DNA of 64,000 nucleotides from assembly GCF_900108065.1 (NCBI RefSeq), contig NZ_FNVQ01000001.1, positions 992,001-1,056,000 on the forward strand, in the 5' to 3' direction. The stretch is from Marinobacterium lutimaris. GTDB taxonomy: Bacteria > Pseudomonadota > Gammaproteobacteria > Pseudomonadales > Balneatricaceae. Shown piece after piece: positions 1 through 10,809 of the stretch. The notes under the pieces are model-generated. The model saw nothing but the letters and a program-made list of their open reading frames with translations, was not told the origin of the DNA and did no database searches. Both the position numbers and the translations under genes were made by a program. How positions within the stretch are numbered: the stretch's first letter is position 1; each line of letters begins with the position of its first letter.

Positions 1-660
1 GTGGTTACCGAAGATACCGCAGACCTCGCGATGGCACTGCTGCTGGCCACCTGCCGCAAACTCAGCGCCAGTGAGCGTTACCTGCGCGCCGATGACTGGG
101 CTTCCGGCATGGGCCAGACCGGCATTCGTGTGCATGGCAAAACCCTCGGCATCATCGGCATGGGCGCCATCGGCCAGGCGCTGGCCCGCCGTGCACAGGG
201 GTTTGGTATGCAGATTATCTACACCAACCGCGGCCCTAACCCAGATGCGGAAGCCGCTCTCGGTGCGCGTTTCTGCGAGACCAAGGAGCAGCTACTGGCC
301 GAAGCCGATATCGTCTCCCTTAACTGCGACCTCAACCCGAATACCCGCCATATCATCGATGCCGAAGCGCTCAGCCAGATGAAGCCCGGCGCCGTGCTGA
401 TCAACGCCGGGCGCGGACCGCTGGTGGATGAAGCCGCGTTGATCAAGGCGCTGGAGAGCGGCCATCTTGGCGGCGCAGGTCTCGATGTGTACGAGTTTGA
501 ACCCCGGGTGAGCCCGCCGCTGACCGCTTTCGATAACGTCACCCTGCTGGCCCATATCGGCAGCGCCACCCAGGAGTGCCGCGCTGATATGGCGCGCCGG
601 GTCTGCGTGAACATTGCTGCGTTTATCCAGCAAGGCGCACCGCAGGATTGCTGCAACTGA
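1..660 (+). CDS. D-2-hydroxyacid dehydrogenase, C-terminal part (5' end outside window)
   Basis: This is the C-terminal ~219 residues of an NAD(P)-dependent D-isomer-specific 2-hydroxyacid dehydrogenase (glyoxylate/hydroxypyruvate reductase-like). The Rossmann motif LGIIGMGAIG is at visible residues 49-58. The catalytic Arg is in NAGRGPLVDE near 137, and the catalytic His is in LLAHIGSAT near 183. Family members are about 310-330 aa, so roughly 100 N-terminal residues lie upstream of the window; the GTG at base 1 is an internal codon, not a start. The stop lies 43 bp before the lactate dehydrogenase gene on the same strand, so the two may be co-transcribed for 2-hydroxyacid use. The exact substrate cannot be read from sequence. 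Confidence 0.9.
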   Translation: MVTEDTADLAMALLLATCRKLSASERYLRADDWASGMGQTGIRVHGKTLGIIGMGAIGQALARRAQGFGMQIIYTNRGPNPDAEAALGARFCETKEQLLAEADIVSLNCDLNPNTRHIIDAEALSQMKPGAVLINAGRGPLVDEAALIKALESGHLGGAGLDVYEFEPRVSPPLTAFDNVTLLAHIGSATQECRADMARRVCVNIAAFIQQGAPQDCCN

Positions 661-702
661 TTTGGCGCCGGTGACAGACTGGCGTAACTGAAGGTCGATC
701 CC

Positions 703-1860
703 ATGAGTATTTTCAATGTGAACCCGGTCACGGTGGATGACTACCGACGACTGGCCCGGCGCAGGCTGCCGCGCTTTCTGTTCGACTATATCGACGGTGG
801 CGCTAACGCCGAGCAGACCTTGGCGGATAACGTGAACGGCTTCGACCGCTACCGCCTCAAGCAGCGGGTGATGCGTAACGTGGATGATGTGGACACCTCC
901 ACCACCCTCGCTGGCTTCGAGGCGGCGATGCCTATGACACTGGCGCCGGTGGGCATGGCGGGCATGTTCGCCCGCCGTGGCGAAACCCTGGGCGCGCGCG
1001 CCGCCAACGCCAACCGAGTGCCCTTCACCTGCTCTACCCTCGGCATCTGCCCGGTGGAAGAGATAGTGCAGGCCACCGGCAAGCCGATCTGGTTTCAGCT
1101 CTATATGCTGCGTGATCGCGAGGTAGTGCAGTCGCTGCTGAAACGAGCCGAAGCAGCCGGCGTAAACACCCTGGTATTTACTGTAGACCTGCCGGTGCCC
1201 GGCAAACGCCTGCGCGACTTCCGCAACGGCATGCTCGGCACCAATCTTTGCAGCAAACTCTCCAAGGCCGCGCAGCTGCTCTACAGCCCGCGCTGGATTA
1301 TGGATGTTGCAATCAAGGGCAAACCCCACGTGATCGGTAACCTGAGCGAAGTGGTGCCCAACCCCGATGATCTGAACGAATACAAAGCCTTTATCGACAG
1401 CCAGTTCGACGCCAGCGTCACCTGGAAAGATATCGAATGGCTCAGAACAATCTGGCCCGGCAAGCTGATCATCAAAGGTGTGATGGAGGTTGGAGATGCC
1501 CAGGCAGCGGTAGCCGCAGGCGCCGATGGCGTGATCGTCTCCAACCACGGCGGCCGCCAGCTGGACTCGGTCTCGTCCAGCATCGCCAAGCTTCCCGCTA
1601 TCGCCAAGGCCCTGGGCGATCAAACCGAGGTTTATATCGATAGCGGTATCCGCAACGGCATCGATGTGGTCAAAGCGATCGCCCTGGGCGCCCGCGGCGT
1701 CCTGATCGGCCGCCCCTGGATCTACGCCATGGCCGGCGCCGGCGAACAGGGAGTGAATGATTTGCTCAATAACTTCCAGAGCGAGATCAGAACCGCCATG
1801 GCGCTGATGGGCGTGAACCGGTTGGAGGAGATTACTGGGGAGTTGATTGAGGAGGTTTGA
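703..1860 (+). CDS. lldD: FMN-dependent L-lactate dehydrogenase (LldD-type 2-hydroxyacid oxidase family)
   Basis: This 385-aa flavoprotein oxidises L-lactate or a related L-2-hydroxyacid to the 2-oxoacid and passes electrons to the quinone pool at the inner membrane. The N-terminus carries the family signature RFLFDYIDGGA. The active-site Lys is near residue 258 (IIKGVM), the catalytic His near 282 in SNHGGRQ, and the phosphate-binding region DSGIRNG near 312. The length matches LldD (380-396 aa). It follows a D-2-hydroxyacid dehydrogenase gene and ends at a strong terminator, suggesting a small hydroxyacid operon. Mandelate or glycolate as substrate cannot be excluded from sequence alone. 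Confidence 0.9.
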   Translation: MSIFNVNPVTVDDYRRLARRRLPRFLFDYIDGGANAEQTLADNVNGFDRYRLKQRVMRNVDDVDTSTTLAGFEAAMPMTLAPVGMAGMFARRGETLGARAANANRVPFTCSTLGICPVEEIVQATGKPIWFQLYMLRDREVVQSLLKRAEAAGVNTLVFTVDLPVPGKRLRDFRNGMLGTNLCSKLSKAAQLLYSPRWIMDVAIKGKPHVIGNLSEVVPNPDDLNEYKAFIDSQFDASVTWKDIEWLRTIWPGKLIIKGVMEVGDAQAAVAAGADGVIVSNHGGRQLDSVSSSIAKLPAIAKALGDQTEVYIDSGIRNGIDVVKAIALGARGVLIGRPWIYAMAGAGEQGVNDLLNNFQSEIRTAMALMGVNRLEEITGELIEEV

Positions 1861-1889
1861 GGTCGCTTAGCGAGGAACTGTTAAAGCAA

Positions 1890-1925
1890 GGGCCGGATCG
1901 ATGAGGATCGTCCGGCCTTTTTAAT
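1890..1925 (+). terminator. Rho-independent terminator after lldD
   Basis: The stem GGCCGGA/TCCGGCC encloses a short loop and is followed by TTTTT. It starts 30 bp after the lldD stop and closes the hydroxyacid operon at the left edge of the accessory region. Confidence 0.85.
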
Positions 1926-1972
1926 TTAATCTGAGGTTCGGCTCTTGGCCCAGAGCTGGCATGAGCAGCTAC

Positions 1973-2182
1973 TCAGTCCAGGTGGTCTTTAGTCCATGAG
2001 CAGTCATTTGCTGACAACAGAGTTGATCTAGGCTCCCCGTTAGCATCATCAATATCGTAGTCTATCCCTGTTCGTTTGCGTTTGCCGGTAAGGGAGAATG
2101 TGGTAAGTTCCGAGTGTGGCTGACCCCATGTCCATAGGCCACCTATGGGAATCAAACAGTCGTTAAAGCGAACAAGCTGCAC
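1973..2182 (-). CDS. Small hypothetical ORF, 69 aa, uncertain
   Basis: This short ORF would start at GTG (MQLVRFNDCL...) and ends 48 bp beyond the lldD terminator. The residue composition looks protein-like, with mixed hydrophobic and charged residues and no low complexity. There is no clear Shine-Dalgarno sequence before the GTG, and the frame is open for only five codons upstream. It may be a fragment of a decayed gene at the edge of the AT-rich accessory region. No family was recognised. Confidence 0.3.
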   Translation of the reverse strand: MQLVRFNDCLIPIGGLWTWGQPHSELTTFSLTGKRKRTGIDYDIDDANGEPRSTLLSANDCSWTKDHLD

Positions 2183-2277
2183 AACAGCGTAAATGAGTCA
2201 CATTCCCAACTGGGCACAGTGACTTTGTTTAGTGGCCTGACAATGTCGAAAAAAGCCCAATTTTGGAGAACGTGCTT

Positions 2278-3288
2278 ATGAACACGAAGTCAGCAAACCT
2301 GCCAGAATTTACCCTGACAATCCTGGGTAAAAATCGCACTCCGATTCGTCAGAAGATCTTTGACAGTAAAAACTTCATCTTGCCCGGCACTCGGGTTGGC
2401 GTTGAAAACCGTGAGCCTAAAACCCGTAAAGAGAAGATGGACGCCTGGGTTCAGGCCCCACTGTCTGAGCGGCAAATTGAGATCATGGGAATGATGGGAC
2501 AGCCGAACCCGTTCCACCATTTCGCCAAGGCGTTTGATACCTCCCAGCTCACGCTTTCGATTCCTAACAAGGGTATCAAGATCAAGGTCGCAGACTTCCG
2601 CGAAGAAGCTCTGAAAGCTGCTCCTGAAGGAACGAAGATAGGCGCGGCTTTTGACACCTATGCCAAAGCACAATACGACCGCTCTTATTCTGATTTGGTT
2701 AGTGATGCCCGCAACAAAGTGATCTCCCGGTTCGAAGCCGCCTTTGCGGAGAACCTTGATCACGACCCGATGAACGATGAGTACCACACTGACAAGGAAA
2801 TTTTCCTGCACCATCCTGTGTGGACTCCTCAAAGCTCAATTAAGGAATACAAGTTGCTCGCGAAGCAAGGTCATGTGTACTCCCAGTACCTGGCCGGTGT
2901 GTTTCTTGCCTCGAACGCTGGTGGTTACAAGGTTGAGTGTGTTGAGTACCTGCTGATGGCATACGAAAATAAGCATCCTGAAGCCATGCGCGTACTCGCT
3001 GAGTTCCTGAATTTCAAGAATGATTACTACGGGGCGGTGCAATGCGCACTTCTGTCTATAGACGGTGGTGATGACTACTCGATGAAAATCGTTCGTGAAG
3101 TGCTTGGCAGTACCTCTCACCAAATGATGCAGACGAATCATGGTGTCGCTCCACTAAGCCTCGTAATCATTGAGACTCTCCGCGCAAACGGATTCGACTC
3201 GATCCTGGGAGAGCATTTCAGCGAGTTCAATCCTGACCCACATCCTGGAATTCGTATCGCTGATTTTCTCAACGGGGCGCAGTCATGA
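2278..3288 (+). CDS. Hypothetical protein with Sel1/TPR-like helical repeat region
   Basis: The product is about 336 aa. The ATG at 2278 is preferred over the upstream TTG at 2263 because GGAGA sits 8-9 bases ahead of it. The N-terminal two thirds match no family I know. Residues ~190-265 read like degenerate Sel1 repeats (AKQGHVYSQYLAG, AYENKHPEAMRVLAEF), which usually form alpha-solenoid protein-binding surfaces. There is no signal peptide or membrane segment. The stop overlaps the next start in ATGA, so it is translationally coupled to the zinc-ribbon protein. It lies on the opposite strand to the cassette array. Base composition is more AT-rich than the core genes, consistent with acquisition. 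Confidence 0.75.
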   Translation: MNTKSANLPEFTLTILGKNRTPIRQKIFDSKNFILPGTRVGVENREPKTRKEKMDAWVQAPLSERQIEIMGMMGQPNPFHHFAKAFDTSQLTLSIPNKGIKIKVADFREEALKAAPEGTKIGAAFDTYAKAQYDRSYSDLVSDARNKVISRFEAAFAENLDHDPMNDEYHTDKEIFLHHPVWTPQSSIKEYKLLAKQGHVYSQYLAGVFLASNAGGYKVECVEYLLMAYENKHPEAMRVLAEFLNFKNDYYGAVQCALLSIDGGDDYSMKIVREVLGSTSHQMMQTNHGVAPLSLVIIETLRANGFDSILGEHFSEFNPDPHPGIRIADFLNGAQS

Positions 3289-3560
3289 GCGGCTTTCGAA
3301 TATGGGATAACAACAGCTCTGACGAAGAGCAGGAAGAGTTTGAGTGTCTCGATTGCGGGTGCACCACGTCCGAGGCTGACTTCGAGTCAGTCGACGATGA
3401 GATGAACCAGCAACGTCCGCGCTGCCCTGACTGCCAGAGCTCACACCGAATCTCCCGCGCAACCTGCGAATGTGGTGAGCCCGCGACTCATGAGGTTGAC
3501 TCAGGGTTCGTTTGCGACGATTGCCATGACCACTATGTCAGCGGTTACAACCGGGACTAA
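3285..3560 (+). CDS. Small zinc-ribbon-like hypothetical protein
   Basis: This 91-aa acidic protein has four paired-cysteine clusters: C21/C24 (plus C26), C47/C50, C61/C63 and C77/C80. The layout suggests one or two structural zinc sites of the ribbon/treble-clef type. The start ATG overlaps the upstream stop by 4 bp, so the two proteins are probably made in fixed ratio and may act together. Such ribbons commonly mediate nucleic-acid or protein contacts; the function here is unknown. It is in the AT-rich accessory region, and the nearest known mobile feature is the attC site starting at 3705. Confidence 0.7.
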   Translation: MSGFRIWDNNSSDEEQEEFECLDCGCTTSEADFESVDDEMNQQRPRCPDCQSSHRISRATCECGEPATHEVDSGFVCDDCHDHYVSGYNRD

Positions 3561-3704
3561 TGTTTAAGGGGGTGGGACGTGCATAATTGCTCGCACGCCC
3601 CCACATACCAATGAGACTTTAAGCATCCGGATCTCCAGCTCTCATTGCCGATAAGCGGTCACCACTTGAACCCACAGCCCGAAGCAGACGGTAGCGAGAG
3701 CAGT

Positions 3705-3795
3705 CATAAACGCTCCAAACAGGGGGCCGACAAATAAGCGCAGCGTATTGGCGGTTCCAGCGACCAACGGGAGCGACTGCTTCAGTTTGTTAGGC
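3705..3795 (-). other. attC recombination site 4 (distal, degenerate R')
   Basis: On the - strand this 91-bp element starts with GCCTAAC (3795-3789), five bases past the stop of the adjacent cassette gene. It continues with the common attC arm CGCTCCCGTTGGTCGCTGG and ends in GCGTTTATG (3711-3705). The terminal core reads GTTTATG instead of GTTRRRY, so it may be a decayed or fused end. Confidence 0.75.
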
Positions 3796-3799
3796 AAAA

Positions 3800-4684
3800 T
3801 TATCCCTCGACTTGGAATATAAATTCCTCACCAGGAACCAAGTTAAAGTTGCAATCCTTAGCTTCAAGCCCGTTAAGCTTGAGGCGATTAATAGCCTCGC
3901 CTTTACTTTCTAAATCCATCAGCATTTTTTGTTCTAATTTTTCAACATGAGAAAGCATATGAAGAAACCCGCTAAGTATATCGGTACTTTCTTCTAGGAG
4001 TTGCGACCTCGAGATATCTGCAGTTCTAATGTTTAAATCTTGAATCCCTGAATGTGCCGCCTGTGAATTTCTCAACTTATTGACAAGATCCATATGATCC
4101 ATGGCGCAATGCTCAAATTCTAAGCAAAGATGGTATGGGTGTGCGAGTGTGCCAACCAAAGATACGAGATGAGGTTCTTTACCATTTTTTCGTTTGCAAC
4201 CTGGGCATGGAGACTCTAGCAATTGCCCTAATGCCATTCGTCCATATCTCGATTCTGGAATCTGTGTGCAGTATAGGAGCTGTTTAATTGAGGCTTCACA
4301 TAGCCTCGTGGAATATAGAAGTATTTCATTATAGAGGCGAAGCCTTTCAATTTCTGAGTCTGTCTCATCATCTGTAGACTCAGAAAAGTTCGCATAGTCG
4401 TGAGAGCTATTTATAACCCTACTCATTAGAAGCGATAAAGTAACCCCGCTCTTAGAATATGGATTCGTAAAACCGCTATTATGTGGGGCTTCATGAGTAG
4501 GAATAATAGATAGGTGCCCTCGCTGTAACATCCAAGCACGCATTTCTGTTGCGATTGGCAAAAGATTTATCCCGCTAATCATTTCCCCTGACCAGCGAAA
4601 CGCTTGAGGACGATAGCTCCAAGAGTGATGAGTACCATGCCACTCGCGTTTATTAGATTCCACTTCGGCTGATTCCTTCCTCAT
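3800..4684 (-). CDS. Cassette gene: hypothetical protein with RNxxxxH (HEPN-like) motif and CxxC
   Basis: This 294-aa soluble protein was not matched to a named family. Residues 160-163 are CPGC. Residues ~172-212 form a helical segment (LVGTLAHPYHLCLEFEHC ... LRNSQAAHS) with Arg205 and His211, matching the Rx4-6H pattern of HEPN ribonucleases. Residues ~225-265 look coiled-coil. The ATG at 4684 directly abuts the R' core of attC 3 and has no upstream Shine-Dalgarno; a GTG about 7 codons in, after AGGAAGGA, is an alternative start. Its own attC follows five bases past the stop. A toxin or defence role is an inference from the HEPN-like motif and cassette location. Confidence 0.75.
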   Translation of the reverse strand: MRKESAEVESNKREWHGTHHSWSYRPQAFRWSGEMISGINLLPIATEMRAWMLQRGHLSIIPTHEAPHNSGFTNPYSKSGVTLSLLMSRVINSSHDYANFSESTDDETDSEIERLRLYNEILLYSTRLCEASIKQLLYCTQIPESRYGRMALGQLLESPCPGCKRKNGKEPHLVSLVGTLAHPYHLCLEFEHCAMDHMDLVNKLRNSQAAHSGIQDLNIRTADISRSQLLEESTDILSGFLHMLSHVEKLEQKMLMDLESKGEAINRLKLNGLEAKDCNFNLVPGEEFIFQVEG

Positions 4685-4750
4685 GCCTAACGTTTGGTTA
4701 AGGGGCGGCCTTTAGCCCGTCCCAGCGAGCGATTTGAACAATTTTTAGGT
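4685..4750 (-). other. attC recombination site 3
   Basis: This 66-bp site reads on the - strand from ACCTAAA (R'', containing the TAA stop of the upstream cassette gene) through the arm CGCTCGCTGGGACGGGC to GTTAGGC (R', 4691-4685). R' is followed at once by the ATG of the next cassette gene. Core motifs, size and stop-codon overlap are typical. Confidence 0.9.
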
Positions 4751-5452
4751 GCTTTCTATCAATTTAATTTCACAATCTTCGAACACATCTTGCCCTGAAG
4801 TCCACAAAGTAGCCGCTTCCTCAGTCTCTAATGCCACTAAAACTGCCTTAGTTAACTCGTAGCTACCATGAAAGCTTTTAGGTAGAGATTTTAGTAATCC
4901 ACTTCGATAGCCGGATATTATGGCTGTATACGTTGCAAGCTGTGCTTTCTCTTCGGTAATACTACCTGGAGGAAAGCCGTGTGGCTTTGCAGCAATGCAT
5001 TCTTGTAAGCTAAGCGATGTATGCTTCTGGCATAACAGAGGGCGAACTTTGTATATTTGGCACTTCCCTTTATCTAAGAATGCACATGGCAGATTAAGTG
5101 CTCCTCTCTGCTCTGGCGTCTTCCCCTCAATTTTTTTGTTTAAAGTGCTTAGCTTGAAGATAAACCGTTGAACCAGATTCAACTTACGTCGAGTTAGATA
5201 CTCAGCAATCCTTAAAGCTTCAGGAGCTGTTACAGAAACAGACTGATAGCAGCAATGATCACATTTGGCCCTGCACGCAATCGGAGGGGTTCTCGGATCT
5301 AAGACTTTATCTCGCATATTTTTTGCGAAGTCGGCGGCATTTTCTACAACGTCACATAGGGTCGAAATAGTCGCTGACTCCGCCAGTCTAAACTGAACCT
5401 CTGATTCTTCTGCGTCAGCCAAACCTGACAGAAATTCTTGTTCCTTATCCAA
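4745..5452 (-). CDS. Cassette gene: YkgJ-type cysteine-cluster protein
   Basis: This 235-aa protein contains the CxxxCxxCC cluster (C60, C64, C67, C68) followed by C123, C131 and C141 in the pattern CAFL...GKCQIYxxRPxxC. It is the signature of the YkgJ/UPF0153 family, thought to bind an Fe-S or zinc cluster. A ~55-residue N-terminal helical region and a C-terminal tail lie outside the domain. The start is TTG at 5452, supported by GGAGG six bases upstream. The TAA stop is part of attC 3. The biochemical role of the family is not firmly known. Carriage as a mobile cassette is what makes this copy notable. Confidence 0.85.
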   Translation of the reverse strand: MDKEQEFLSGLADAEESEVQFRLAESATISTLCDVVENAADFAKNMRDKVLDPRTPPIACRAKCDHCCYQSVSVTAPEALRIAEYLTRRKLNLVQRFIFKLSTLNKKIEGKTPEQRGALNLPCAFLDKGKCQIYKVRPLLCQKHTSLSLQECIAAKPHGFPPGSITEEKAQLATYTAIISGYRSGLLKSLPKSFHGSYELTKAVLVALETEEAATLWTSGQDVFEDCEIKLIEST

Positions 5453-5474
5453 GCGACCTCCGTGCTCTTAGTCC

Positions 5475-5559
5475 GCCTAACGTCGCGTTAAAGGGCCAGA
5501 GCAGAAAAGTTATAGAGGTCCCAGGAGCGCAGTTACCGAATTTTAGTGCTTTGTTATAT
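5475..5559 (-). other. attC recombination site 2
   Basis: This 85-bp site runs on the - strand from ATATAAC (5559-5553), one base after the TGA stop of the upstream cassette gene, to GTTAGGC (5481-5475). The internal arms include TGCGCTCCTGGGACC and CTCTGGCCC. The next gene starts 23 bases beyond, with its own ribosome binding site. Confidence 0.9.
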
Positions 5560-5560
5560 C

Positions 5561-6472
5561 TCATTTTCCCACCACCTGTGCCAGCCATTTCTTGAAGTAT
5601 GTTAGCTCTTTCGGGTCCGGGATAACTTTAAACAACTGGGCCAGATTTTCACGAGTTAGCAGCACTCGGCCAGCCTTCACAGCGGTTTTAACACGCTCCA
5701 GCTTTTCCTCAAGTTCTTGGCACCATTTTGCCCAAAAGCGGAGTGCGCTCGAGGGCGCTGCATCGACATCAAAATCCGCCAATTCTGCAAGTTTAGGTTC
5801 TACATCCAGAACTAGGATCTCTCGGATATTGTGCTCATGGTAAAGGCACTCGATGCCACTAAGATTGCCTGTTTGCTCCTCGAGATACTGTGGCCGAGGC
5901 AACGACTTGCCAGCCATTACCTCCATTCCCTTAACCTCTTCTTCCGTCGCTAGGCGAGGAACACGGATTGATCCATCTCGCGCCCGGATCATTTTACCAA
6001 CCTCGCGCACTAAAATGTCGGGGCAACCTTGGTTCCGCTCGGCCAAAGCTCTGCTAGTTCGATACACCCAATCGGTACCTTTCTCCTCTCCCCTCATCTT
6101 GGAAATCTCTTCGAGGTAGCGTTCGAGTTGAAAAAGGAATGACGCAATAGTCTGTCGGTTTTGGTAATCAGTCAGTGCTCGGGCAAATACCTTGGAGAAT
6201 TCATCAAACTTCACACCAAAGTGATTTTTACCGCAGATATTTCCAATATTTGTGACCCTTCCGGATTTCGTTGTGACGATATAGCCCCGGCCGTGTGGTT
6301 GGTGGCACACAGAGAGGCCACAGTTGATCTTGTCTTTGAACATATACCTACCTATGATTTCTTTCAGCTCCTCTTTTTCAGGATCAAGGTCGATAGTAAA
6401 ACCCGGAAGTTGCAGGATTTCTTCCCAAGACTCTACATCTTCAAATCCGCGCTCGCTGTTTAGGGTGATCAT
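5561..6472 (-). CDS. Cassette gene: hypothetical protein with N-terminal Cys/His metal-binding motif
   Basis: The product is 303 aa with no recognised family. An N-terminal module carries Cys51, Cys56, His57, His60, then Cys80 and His84 within SGRVTNIGNICGKNHFG, resembling a small zinc-binding fold. The remainder (~100-303) is predicted mostly helical and charged, with possible coiled coil around 110-125 and 245-270. The start ATG at 6472 has CGAGGT nine bases upstream, placed just after attC 1. Its attC follows the TGA by one base. Cytoplasmic. The conserved-looking motif suggests a real, possibly nucleic-acid-binding protein; that is inference. Confidence 0.75.
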   Translation of the reverse strand: MITLNSERGFEDVESWEEILQLPGFTIDLDPEKEELKEIIGRYMFKDKINCGLSVCHQPHGRGYIVTTKSGRVTNIGNICGKNHFGVKFDEFSKVFARALTDYQNRQTIASFLFQLERYLEEISKMRGEEKGTDWVYRTSRALAERNQGCPDILVREVGKMIRARDGSIRVPRLATEEEVKGMEVMAGKSLPRPQYLEEQTGNLSGIECLYHEHNIREILVLDVEPKLAELADFDVDAAPSSALRFWAKWCQELEEKLERVKTAVKAGRVLLTRENLAQLFKVIPDPKELTYFKKWLAQVVGK

Positions 6473-6494
6473 TATTTACGACCTCGAATCTGAT

Positions 6495-6578
6495 ACATAA
6501 CGCCCGCAGCACGCGTGGCTTTGGAATGTAGGCAAAGCCGCAATGAAAAAGACGTCGCCGTGCCTACGATTGTTAGAA
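6495..6578 (-). other. attC recombination site 1
   Basis: This 84-bp site runs on the - strand from TTCTAAC (6578-6572), whose TAA is the stop codon of the upstream gene, to GTTATGT (6501-6495). The outer arms AGGCACGGCGACG and CCACGCGTGCTGCGGGC can pair imperfectly, with an inner AATGCGGCTTTGCC segment. This is the standard attC design. Confidence 0.9.
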
Positions 6579-7514
6579 ACGATCAATATCATTCAGCCTC
6601 TTGAGTTTATCTGTGTTGGCCAGCAATACGAACTGACGAATGCGGTACGTATCCGCGACAAGCTTTCCATGTTCTTTAATCGTTTGTAGTGCGTCATCCG
6701 ATCTGCGAAGATCAAATCCGATTTCACGAGAAATCTTCCACGTAGATTCTGAAAGTTCTTTGAGGCTTACAAGGGATTCACCTGCAGTCGAAGTTGCATT
6801 CTCCACAATAGATGAAATCACATCAGACAAACGGCTCGGACCTCTTCCTACAAACTGAGGCGAATGCCAGCATATATCTGTCCCTGTCTGTGAGTAGGAA
6901 TAGAAGTGATTATGATCCTGGACATGCTCGTGCGGTGTTATAGCCACGTGTTCTCTTAAAAACGGACTGCAATTCAGGTAACGAACCATAAATCTCTCTC
7001 GGATCTCAGCGTGGCGTCTGAACCATATAGGATCACCATGAAAACGGAAATCTTCGTTAAAAAGCGTTTGATAATATTGTGATTTATCTAGCTCTAAAGG
7101 AGCTACATAGAACGCTCTTGAAACACCTTTTATTTCATGGCTAAGCAGCACATTATGCTGAAGGTGATACGCTTTTTCAGCCTTCTTTCGGAGCTGAAAA
7201 AACAGTGATGGATCCTCTTCCAAGCTATTGAGAGCTCGATACTCTCTGATGTCTTCCATCCGGCTTCGGCTAACAGATTTAGAAATTGGGACAATCGTCG
7301 ATGAGTGCAGTCCTGTTGATTTTTTAAACTGCATGTAAATCGTACAGCCTGCATCATATCGCTTATCTGCGCCAGTGATTGGCTCGTTCACATCGACTAA
7401 TCGCAGCGGTCCGGGACTCCCCAGAGGCGTGCACCAAGAAAAGTACGAAGCAATATCTGCCTCAATCTGAGCTTCTGAAAGGTTCCCTTTAATTACGTAC
7501 TTCGGACTAGCCAC
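6573..7514 (-). CDS. Cassette gene: hypothetical protein with D...QxK nuclease-like motif
   Basis: This 313-aa protein was not assigned to a named family. The N-terminus has an acidic helix (SEAQIEAD, E14/E18), then D54 and Q62-F-K64 in ADKRYDAGCTIYMQFKKS. That spacing matches the E...D...(D/E/Q)xK core of PD-(D/E)xK nucleases, with Gln in the third acidic position as in several restriction-type enzymes. The C-terminal ~90 residues are helical. The start is GTG at 7514 with AAAGGAAAG eight bases ahead. The TAA stop lies inside the R'' core of attC 1, so this is the first cassette of the array. A defence-nuclease role is plausible but untested. Confidence 0.75.
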   Translation of the reverse strand: MASPKYVIKGNLSEAQIEADIASYFSWCTPLGSPGPLRLVDVNEPITGADKRYDAGCTIYMQFKKSTGLHSSTIVPISKSVSRSRMEDIREYRALNSLEEDPSLFFQLRKKAEKAYHLQHNVLLSHEIKGVSRAFYVAPLELDKSQYYQTLFNEDFRFHGDPIWFRRHAEIRERFMVRYLNCSPFLREHVAITPHEHVQDHNHFYSYSQTGTDICWHSPQFVGRGPSRLSDVISSIVENATSTAGESLVSLKELSESTWKISREIGFDLRRSDDALQTIKEHGKLVADTYRIRQFVLLANTDKLKRLNDIDRF

Positions 7515-7532
7515 AAAACTTTCCTTTATGTT

Positions 7533-7628
7533 CTAACATTTTGATACTGAGCATGCGTGCGTTGGTTTAGAGAGCAGAAAGAATGAGGTGATATAAGCAT
7601 TTGAAATATATCGATATTTAAACATCAT
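7533..7628 (-). CDS. Leader-like 31-aa ORF upstream of the first cassette
   Basis: A 31-codon ORF (begins MMFKYRYISN, ends SVSKC) has a very strong GGAGGAGA Shine-Dalgarno eight bases before its ATG. It terminates with TAG inside the GTTAGAA core that precedes the first cassette gene. The peptide has a short hydrophobic stretch (AYITSFFLL). In class 1 integrons a short ORF within attI (ORF-11) boosts translation of the first cassette; position and signals here suggest a similar leader, but this is inference. It could equally be a small cassette-borne peptide. Confidence 0.45.
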   Translation of the reverse strand: MMFKYRYISNAYITSFFLLSKPTHACSVSKC

Positions 7629-7646
7629 GGTTATTTCTCCTCCGTG

Positions 7647-7782
7647 AAAAACGAGCATGCACGTTTGTATGAAACGCTGTGCGTAGTATCACACAATCCC
7701 CGCTCCTTAATCCCTTAAACTTGCGCCCGTTTTCCGGGCTTTGCCGGTAACATATGAGCACACTCAGGTTAAAAAACGAGCA
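7647..7782. repeat. 11-bp direct repeat, possible attI remnant
   Basis: AAAAACGAGCA occurs at 7647-7657 and 7772-7782. attI sites carry direct repeats bound by IntI next to the insertion point, so this could be a relic of attI; the evidence is only positional. Confidence 0.3.
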
Positions 7783-7807
7783 ACTAGACCAATCCACACT
7801 AAATATA

Positions 7808-7823
7808 CTGTATGAAATTACAG
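7808..7823. promoter_or_regulatory. LexA (SOS) box
   Basis: CTGTATGAAATTACAG is a perfect CTGT-N8-ACAG match, overlapping a TATACT -10-like hexamer (7804-7809). SOS control by LexA is the known mode of regulation of integron integrase promoters. No SOS gene follows on either strand, which suggests the regulated gene was lost. Confidence 0.6.
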
Positions 7824-8039
7824 AGAAACGAGGTGCTTTGTCCACACGCCAACCACGGCTTAGGCTCAGAGGTGACTCCCGCAAAGTCCGCTTTGTGCGC
7901 TAAGCAGAACCGCTTATTGCCTTTCGTGCAAGGAGATGGCGTACCAGCCCGACCTGGGTGGGTGCAGCTGTGGGTGAGGAACAGCAGTGGTCGGCTGGTA
8001 CATAACGCGAAGATCGACGGGATCGCCGACCTTCTGAGG

Positions 8040-8083
8040 TTCGCCCCGTATCCCTAAAGTAGGGATTTATATGCCGGGGCGAA
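8040..8083 (-). terminator. Nested inverted repeat after etfD (possible terminator)
   Basis: The outer arms TTCGCCCCG (8040-8048) and CGGGGCGAA (8075-8083) pair perfectly, enclosing ATCCCTA/TAGGGAT with a 3-base loop. It lies 10 bases after the etfD stop. There is no U-tract on the - strand, so intrinsic termination is uncertain, but position fits a 3' end stabiliser or boundary. Confidence 0.5.
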
Positions 8084-8092
8084 GGTGGAAGG

Positions 8093-9739
8093 CTACATGT
8101 TCGGGTAGTTGGGTCCGCCCATCCCTTCTGGCGTGACCCAGGTGATGTTCTGGGCCGGGTCTTTGATATCGCAGGTTTTGCAGTGCAGGCAGTTCTGGGC
8201 GTTGATCTGGAAACGCTCGCCCTCTCCCTCCTCTATCACTTCATACACGCCTGCCGGGCAGTAACGCTGGGCGGGTTCTGCAAACTTCACCAGGTTCTGC
8301 TGCAGCGGGATATCGGCGTTCTCCAGCTGCAGGTGACAGGGCTGGTCCTCTTCATGGTTGGTGTTGGAGAGAAACACCGACGAGAGCTTATCGAAGCTCA
8401 GCTTACCGTCTGGCTTGGGGTAGATGATCGGCTGGTAGCTGCTGGCCGGTTTCAGCTGTTCATGGTCCGGGTGGTTATCGCGCAGCGTGACCGGGATACG
8501 GCCACCAAACCAGTTTTGATCCACGTAGTTGAATGCACCGCCGAGCCACTGACCGAGTTTATGCATCGCCGGGCCGAAGTTACGGGAACGGAACAGCTCA
8601 TCGTAGAGCCAGGACGACTCGAACAGATCCGTATAGCCTACCAGCTCATTGCCGCCCTCATCGCCTTTGGCCAGCGCCTGGAAGATCGCTTCAGCGGCGA
8701 GCATGCCGGATTTCATCGCGGTGTGGCTGCCCTTGATCTTGCTGAAGTTGAGCGTACCGGCATCGCAGCCGACCAACAGTCCGCCGGGGAAGGTCATCTT
8801 CGGCAAGGAGTTGTAGCCCCCCTTTGCAATGGCGCGGGCGCCGTAAGAGACACGCTTGCCCCCTTGCAGATGACGCGCAAGCACCGGGTGATGTTTCAGG
8901 CGCTGCAGCTCATCGAAGGGGCTCAGGTAAGGGTTTGCATAGTTCAGGTCAACGATCTGCCCGACCACCACCTGATTGTTTTCGGTGTGGTAGAGGAAGA
9001 AGCCGCCACTGGTGTCTTTATCCAGCGGCCAGCCGGTGCCATGCACCACCAGACCAGGCTGATGCTGTTCCGCAGGAATATCCCATAACTCTTTGATACC
9101 TAATCCATAATGCTGGCAGTCGGACTGGCTATCCAGCTTGTAACGGGCGATCAGCTCCTTGCCCAGGTGGCCGCGACAGCCCTCTGAGAAAATGGTGTAT
9201 TTGGCATGCAGTTCCATGCCCGGCGTGTAGTTGGCGCCCTGCTCTCCGGCGGCGGTTACGCCCATATCGCCGGTGGCGATGCCCTTCACGCTGCCATCCT
9301 CGTTATAGAGGATTTCGGCGGCGGCAAAGCCAGGGAAGACTTCGACACCCAGGGACTCGGCCTGCTCCGCCAGCCAGCGGCAGAGGTTACCCAGGCTGAT
9401 GATGTAGTTGCCCTGGTTGTGCATCGTCTTCGGCACGAAGGCGTTGGGGATGCGGGTGCCCTTTTTGGCATCTTTCAGCAGATAGACTTCATCTTCGGTG
9501 ACGGCCGTGTTCAGCGGAGCACCGAGCTCTTGCCAGTTGGGGAATAGTTCATCCAGTGCGCGGGTCTCGAACACCGCACCTGAGAGTATATGAGCGCCTA
9601 TCTCGGAGCCTTTCTCGACGACGCAGACGGTGAGTTCTTTTTCCGCTTCCTGGGCCTGCTGCATCAGGCGGCAGGCGGTAGAGAGCCCGGCCGGGCCGGC
9701 GCCCACGATAACGACATCAAACTCCATAGAATCACGCAT
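8093..9739 (-). CDS. etfD: Electron transfer flavoprotein:ubiquinone oxidoreductase
   Basis: This 548-aa inner-membrane-associated FAD/4Fe-4S protein passes electrons from reduced ETF to ubiquinone. The N-terminal FAD motif is VVIVGAGPAGLS. The C-terminus carries the 4Fe-4S ligand run CLHCKTCDIKDP, plus an upstream Cys in RYCPAGVYEV, and ends PNYPNM. The length equals that of bacterial homologues. The ATG at 9739 has GGGAGG seven bases upstream. It lies downstream of etfBA and a fatty-acid oxidation cluster, supplying the route from acyl-CoA dehydrogenase to the quinone pool. A strong terminator separates it from etfA, so it probably has its own promoter. Confidence 0.97.
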   Translation of the reverse strand: MRDSMEFDVVIVGAGPAGLSTACRLMQQAQEAEKELTVCVVEKGSEIGAHILSGAVFETRALDELFPNWQELGAPLNTAVTEDEVYLLKDAKKGTRIPNAFVPKTMHNQGNYIISLGNLCRWLAEQAESLGVEVFPGFAAAEILYNEDGSVKGIATGDMGVTAAGEQGANYTPGMELHAKYTIFSEGCRGHLGKELIARYKLDSQSDCQHYGLGIKELWDIPAEQHQPGLVVHGTGWPLDKDTSGGFFLYHTENNQVVVGQIVDLNYANPYLSPFDELQRLKHHPVLARHLQGGKRVSYGARAIAKGGYNSLPKMTFPGGLLVGCDAGTLNFSKIKGSHTAMKSGMLAAEAIFQALAKGDEGGNELVGYTDLFESSWLYDELFRSRNFGPAMHKLGQWLGGAFNYVDQNWFGGRIPVTLRDNHPDHEQLKPASSYQPIIYPKPDGKLSFDKLSSVFLSNTNHEEDQPCHLQLENADIPLQQNLVKFAEPAQRYCPAGVYEVIEEGEGERFQINAQNCLHCKTCDIKDPAQNITWVTPEGMGGPNYPNM

Positions 9740-9801
9740 AAAAACCTCCCGGCGATATCCCTGCCGCCTTTCTTATAGATATAAGGTCATCAATTCGGGT
9801 C

Positions 9802-9839
9802 AAAAAATATGCCCTGAACCTGGGGAAGAACAGGGCATA
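9802..9839 (-). terminator. Rho-independent terminator after etfBA
   Basis: The perfect 9-bp stem TATGCCCTG/CAGGGCATA (9808-9816, 9831-9839) is followed on the - strand by TTTTTT (9807-9802). It separates etfA from etfD. Confidence 0.9.
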
Positions 9840-9879
9840 AAGGATTGCGACGACTGTCTTTCGGATTTACGGCTGAGGC

Positions 9880-10809
9880 TTATAGCTTGGATTCCAGCTC
9901 CGGCACCGCCTCGAACAGATCAGCCACCAGACTGTAATCCGCCACCTGGAAGATCGGCGCTTCTTCATCCTTGTTGATCGCGACGATCACCTTGGAGTCC
10001 TTCATACCGGCCAGATGCTGGATCGCACCGGAGATACCCACGGCGAAGTAGATATCGGGCGCTACGATCTTGCCGGTCTGGCCCACCTGCATATCGTTGG
10101 GTACAAAGCCTGCGTCCACGGCAGCACGGGAGGCGCCCACCGCCCCGCCGAGTTTGTCGGCGAGGGATTCCAGCAGTGCGAAGTTCTCGCCGTTACCCAG
10201 GCCACGGCCACCGGAAACTACTACGCTGGCCGCAGTCAGTTCTGGGCGGTCGGACTTCGCCATCTCTTCACTGACAAAGGCGGAGGTGCCGGCATCGTGA
10301 GCCGGGCTCACGCGATCTACACTGGCGCTACCGCCGGTGCTTGCTGCCGCGTCAAACGCGGTGCCGCGCACGGTGATCACCTTGATCGCATCCAGTGACT
10401 GCACGGTAGCGATGGCGTTACCGGCGTAGATCGGGCGCTCGAAGGTATCGGCGGCTTCTACGGCGATGATGTCGGAGATCTGGCCCACATCCAGCAGCGC
10501 GGCCACGCGGGGCATCACGTTTTTGCCGGTGGTGGTGGCCGGCGCGACTACGTGGCTGTAGTCCTTGCCGAGCTCTGCTACCAGCAGCGAGAGGTTTTCC
10601 GCCAGCTGACGCCCATAGGCGGCGTTATCGGCCAGCAGGACCTTGGAGACGCCAGCAACGCCTGCAGCGGCTTCGGCAACTGCGGCGCAGCCTTCGCCCG
10701 CGACCAGCAGGTGCAGTTCTTCGCCCATCTGGCTAGCGGCGGTAACGGTGTTGAGCGTGGCACTTTTCAGGGTGCTGTTGTCATGTTCTGCAATGATGAG
10801 AATAGCCAT
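9880..10809 (-). CDS. etfA: Electron transfer flavoprotein alpha subunit
   Basis: This 309-aa subunit binds FAD and shuttles electrons from acyl-CoA dehydrogenases to ETF:quinone oxidoreductase. The C-terminal FAD-binding domain is clear: [13 protein letters not shown]-like segment ([16 protein letters not shown]), then [12 protein letters not shown] and ADYSLVADL. It begins 12 bp after etfB and is in the usual etfB-etfA order, so the heterodimer is made from one transcript. It is followed by a strong terminator. Confidence 0.97.

Follow-up and report, generated by a model that had tools for sequence, protein, structure and literature searches.

What does a row of four neighbouring genes in Marinobacterium lutimaris represent: an undescribed defence system, or independent cassettes held in an integron array without an integrase of its own? 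The genes, which we call gA, gB, gC and gD, are four minus-strand open reading frames (ORFs) in a row, each with its own attC site, in a 64 kb stretch of contig NZ_FNVQ01000001.1 (positions 992,001 to 1,056,000; the window). A first-pass annotation of these letters had proposed a cluster of attC sites lacking integrases (CALIN) and had named it the best candidate for an undescribed system. The element is almost certainly a CALIN, a kind of element already known (PMC9024848), with four attC sites, matching cores and no integron integrase gene (intI) in the window. The idea of a four-gene system is unsupported: the genes behave as independent cassettes and very probably work singly.

Four attC sites and their cassettes

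The strongest evidence comes from a covariance model (CM), R1, built from 20 aligned attC-like sites that had been gathered beside integron integrases of related genomes. All training sites come from other genomes and the window sites were excluded; in the alignment, 9 of 14 predicted pairs show changes on both sides. Scanned over both strands of the 64 kb, the model gives exactly four matches at E ≤ 10, all on the minus strand and all at the spacers already named as integron sites (Table 1), so that reading, which a score for fewer than two of them would have overturned, stands. Run without filters over 1900-8100, the model again ranks these four sites first, and the next match reaches 7.0 bits (E 2.5). 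As a positive control the model was run on 14 loci beside integrases and returned 91 matches at E ≤ 1, a figure that includes its own training sites; none of the 91 falls in the two loci at the genome's own broken intI.

Direct sequence similarity leads to the same sites. Site 3 shares 97.8% identity over 45 nt with an attC in L031, an array that has an intI, and site 4 matches one attC at 86% over 59 nt (L098, elsewhere in this genome) and another at 91% over 43 nt (L025), none of these BLAST partners being among the R1 training sites. Site 1 also resembles an L031 site by eye, a pair that BLAST did not report. Two stop codons lie inside the R'' core, as had been noticed from the letters: the TAA of gA at 6575-6573 within TTCTAAC and that of gC at 4747-4745 within ACCTAAA.

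An incoming cassette brings its own start core, so its R'' is expected to fit that core and not the one at the array end of its attC. Cassettes A to D fit their own start cores at 7, 6, 5 and 7 of 7 positions, and the terminal core at the attC end at 4, 4, 5 and 3 of 7. The sum of 25 is reached by only 2 of 120 core assignments, the true one and a twin that exists because two cores are identical. Cassette C shows the weakest boundary match (R'' ACCTAAA; 5/7), and the GTTAGAA before gA supplies the left boundary of cassette A. Between its two cores each cassette has a single main ORF, without a clear partner gene.

Table 1. Features of the cassette array and its locus (window coordinates)
Feature	Position	Strand	Evidence
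Core site GTTAGAA, left (5') boundary of cassette A	7531..7537	-	Fits R'' TTCTAAC 7/7
gA, 313 aa orphan, cassette A	6573..7514	-	ORF list; no relatives found
attC site 1 (TTCTAAC...GTTATGT)	6495..6578	-	CM R1 36.6 bits, E 1e-6
gB, 303 aa, phrog_7003 family, cassette B	5561..6472	-	phrog_7003 E 1.2e-67; AlphaFold pLDDT 93.0
attC site 2 (ATATAAC...GTTAGGC)	5475..5559	-	CM R1 20.1 bits, E 0.014
gC, 235 aa, CxxCxxCC (YkgJ-like) protein, cassette C	4745..5452	-	PF03692 E 5.8e-9
attC site 3 (ACCTAAA...GTTAGGC), degenerate R''	4685..4750	-	CM R1 18.0 bits, E 0.045
gD, 294 aa, cross-phylum cassette family, cassette D	3800..4684	-	Relatives L047-L052; Cys/His set and R-x5-H
attC site 4 (GCCTAAC...GTTTATG), right end of array	3704..3795	-	CM R1 22.9 bits, E 0.0027
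Variable stretch between two conserved flanks	1921..7933		Flanks align to L094; IetAS here in close relative

Independent genes at a variable chromosomal locus

Searches with TIGR02249 found no intI in the window, so the array stands without an adjacent integrase, and a complete integron, with intI next to the array, is not present here. The only match over the cut-off in the whole genome lies about 513 kb from the array (C18:1512734-1513693) and is broken by three in-frame stops (one TGA, two TAA); no attC match at E ≤ 5 was found in the 20 kb taken next to it (L008). Beside the broken gene (L001:1468-2481), a downstream ORF pair resembles HigA/HigB by eye, and two unassigned ORFs lie upstream. 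The array resembles known CALINs in having two or more attC sites with no intI next to them and one gene per site in one orientation, and differs only in detail: its sites fold weakly, its first boundary core is still readable, and a broken intI remains elsewhere in the genome.

The same strand and close spacing of the genes would also suit inheritance as a single unit, whether an operon or a four-gene defence system, with attC-like spacers arising by chance. We consider this extremely improbable given the CM and core evidence, the cores that gD relatives carry of their own, and a tblastn search (E ≤ 1e-4) of 136 fetched loci, many of them reaching no further than 1.5-5 kb past the hit, in which no two of the four proteins occur together except in the window's own stretch. 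None of the gB and gD relatives that were fetched is accompanied by a second gene of the array, nor were homologues seen among the 136 loci in the fixed operon order, without integrons, that would have told against cassettes. Under the cassette reading, an integrase acting in trans would have captured the four single-gene cassettes one at a time, and the array would now be stranded at a chromosomal spot where close relatives carry different genes.

The comparison with one such relative (G003, locus L094) defines this spot. Its sequence aligns at about 95% to window positions 1-1920 and 7934-10241, with no alignment between. At this locus G003 has no attC match, and carries instead IetA (7.5e-125) and IetS (1.8e-262) by PADLOC; in a second relative (G001) the comparison covered the right flank only. 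The variable stretch also contains two overlapping plus-strand ORFs, 2263-3288 (341 aa) and 3285-3560 (91 aa, Cys-rich), with no match above a curated cut-off and no convincing PADLOC match, which are possibly a separate accessory module.

Short arrays of this sort recur in the genome. Three more lie in this genome (C10:215690-217002, C10:735540-738020 and about C18:1091496-1093399); the whole-genome attC search, in which only 150 of 770 candidates were scored, did not recover the strongest site of the window, so it can only underestimate the number of sites. Among the eight genus genomes, own included, seven have attC matches at E ≤ 0.001, and an intI over the cut-off without stops is present in 4 of the 7 others (G002, G003, G005, G006). 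One integrase-less array of the same genome carries Kiwa as a cassette (L096:642-2247; G000:C10:214141-215746): KwaA (2.4e-78) and KwaB (4.8e-134) are matched by PADLOC, the cores GTTAAGC...GCTTAAC fit 7/7, and an attC follows directly after KwaB. In the third array, an OLD/AriA-like ATPase (PADLOC AriA 2e-16) lies between attC sites (L098:3014-4327; G000:C18:1092013-1093326). CALINs at recurrent loci in Xanthomonas, as described in PMC12444791, are similar in that arrays lie away from the intI locus and include Kiwa among their cassettes; they belong to another lineage, and the locus studied here holds IetAS in a relative.

The cassette proteins

gD has relatives in distant lineages: Chroococcus (83% identity), Acinetobacter (75%), Pectobacterium (74%), a cyanobacterial metagenome-assembled genome (68%), an IMG/VR contig (66%) and a Phycisphaera plasmid (32%). 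In 4/4 chromosomal loci the gene is flanked by a start core and an R'' that fits it (7, 7, 6 and 7 of 7, by eye), and in Acinetobacter its stop codon falls inside R'', as in gA and gC. All four loci contain CM matches (22.7, 20.7, 17.2 and 14.3 bits, the weakest only E 0.31), those in L048 and L049 not being gD's own attC. In Acinetobacter sp. ANC 4204 (L050:5995-6950), gD and its attC form an apparent lone chromosomal cassette, for which an off-target insertion is possible. Identity of 68-83% between distant lineages argues that gD is under selection somewhere.

Residues C160, C163, H172, C187, C193, R205 and H211 of gD are invariant in 7/7 sequences. HEPN RNases have a conserved R-x4-6-H, and gD shares with them the invariant R205-x5-H211 and a mostly helical model at low confidence; it differs in having no match in Pfam, NCBIfam or PADLOC and in carrying an extra Cys/His set. 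That gD is a HEPN RNase is rather doubtful. Nuclease or RNase-like motifs had been proposed for two genes: the gD motif is conserved and its structure model failed, and the gA motif (TGAD...QFKK) is read in one sequence only. The PD-(D/E)xK nuclease core has a conserved D...(D/E/Q)xK; gA itself found no relative in any search made and no Pfam match.

For gD neighbours, ten proteins were hand-chosen from five of the six loci (L047-L049, L051 and L052) and scanned with PADLOC. Strong matches are AbiEii and AbiEi (L047), AbiTii (L052) and two PDC-S28 pieces (L048), and another ORF near the L052 relative matches PDC-M14B (9.2e-12). Two of the ten match nothing. The L048 pieces belong to Chroococcus sp. 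FPU101 (L048:7009-9643), where a helicase-like gene in two pieces follows gD and is itself followed by an attC match, which suggests a possible defence cassette.

gB is a member of phrog_7003 (residues 1-296 of 303), a phage protein family of unknown function, and differs from it in setting, as an integron cassette. It occurs in 4 phage records, 21 plasmid records, 17 viral contigs and 2 of 368 other genomes of the class. C51, C56, H60 and C80 are invariant in 12/12 sequences, and the confident AlphaFold model from these sequences (pTM 0.78) has a beta-rich N-terminal part, where the Cys/His residues lie, and a helical C-terminal part. Foldseek gave no convincing solved relative (best PDB match E 0.48). 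Among four gB-neighbour proteins scanned, one, beside the relative in L046, is AbiD (4.9e-59).

gC matches the CxxCxxCC family with 37 bits against a curated cut-off of 23, and its distant plasmid relatives are annotated YkgJ. Metal clusters had been expected in two genes; gC bears this out, and invariant Cys/His sets also occur in gB and gD.

A possible defence role and its alternatives

Taken whole, the explanation we moderately favour is a CALIN of independently captured cassettes in which gD or gB protects against phages or mobile genetic elements (MGEs); the narrower proposition, that gD or gB acts against phages or MGEs, has slightly less than an even chance. Phage defence, suggested for the array in the first-pass annotation, is favoured for these two genes alone, and by their context only. 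The argument draws on IetAS at the same locus in G003, on Abi genes beside gD and gB relatives, on the Kiwa cassette in the same genome, and on published work. PMC12444791 reports that 20% of V. cholerae integron cassettes without predicted function encode anti-phage systems missed by software; it also describes Kiwa among the cassettes of Xanthomonas and refers to three 2025 papers on defence genes carried by integrons. In mechanism, gD would be a metal-binding helical protein whose HEPN-like R-x5-H site cuts RNA after a phage trigger, leading to growth stop. gB may use its N-terminal beta barrel, which bears the Cys/His set, to bind nucleic acid or a phage protein, and would give temperate phages, plasmids and the hosts of the cassette an advantage over competitors.

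Several observations weigh against this explanation. PADLOC (2023) gives 0 matches at E ≤ 1 for gA, gB, gC and gD, and the defence context consists of hand-picked neighbours and is not a survey. Neighbours of gD in L049 and L051 give one match each, only near E 0.007; of the four gB neighbours, two match only HNH models and one matches nothing. The gD copies on the prophage or viral contig (L052) and the plasmid (L047) have no cassette cores, the AlphaFold model of gD is unusable (pLDDT 41.5), and promoter-like sites occur at chance level. The single-strand folding that had been proposed as a check also failed to separate the four sites from shuffles (z -0.49, 0.08, -0.22, -1.23), and folding them in the rebuilt circular form did not do so either (z -1.74, 0.34, -0.25, -1.61). 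In the circular form an uninterrupted outer stem appears in sites 1 and 4 and not in site 2; the fold of site 3 is unchanged because both its cores are identical. Present-day mobility is doubtful given weak folds in both forms. Random 85-mers of the window (n = 60) have a mean z of -0.2 (sd 1.05), the training sites (n = 20) lie below -2 in 14 cases and above -1 in 6, and weaker sites hand-picked from the R1 control matches (n = 13) lie below -2 in 8. The window sites are thus at the poor end of fold stability and look partly decayed, which we attribute to the earlier loss of an active integrase.

The closest competitor is a CALIN of miscellaneous cassettes without a shared role (metal handling by gC, stress or other functions), kept by drift after integrase loss and unconnected with defence. 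It gains from gC being a common CxxCxxCC protein, from the empty PADLOC result and from the weak folds, and we give it nearly an even chance; all four ORFs remain open, however, gD is too similar across distant lineages to have escaped selection everywhere, and defence genes accompany some gB and gD relatives and occupy the same locus. Alternatively, gD and gB could be toxins of toxin-antitoxin pairs or mobile-element maintenance genes with no anti-phage role. Toxin-antitoxin genes are frequent integron cargo, the gD R-x5-H is similar to the HEPN toxin motif, and both genes occur on plasmids and in phages or viral contigs; the single main ORF of each cassette points the other way, and we judge this alternative quite unlikely.

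Returning to a CALIN with protective cargo, the array supplies two concrete, testable families. Its boldest form, which we hold only tentatively and think rather improbable, is that gD represents an undescribed family of anti-phage effectors, each a single cassette gene with a Cys/His metal site and R-x5-H, which integrons have carried at high identity between Cyanobacteria and Gammaproteobacteria, and that gB represents another solo defence family, of new structure and common to phages, plasmids and integrons. gB ties phage accessory genes to integron cargo, and gD has crossed between phyla with the cores of its cassette preserved, which directly records transfer in cassette form.
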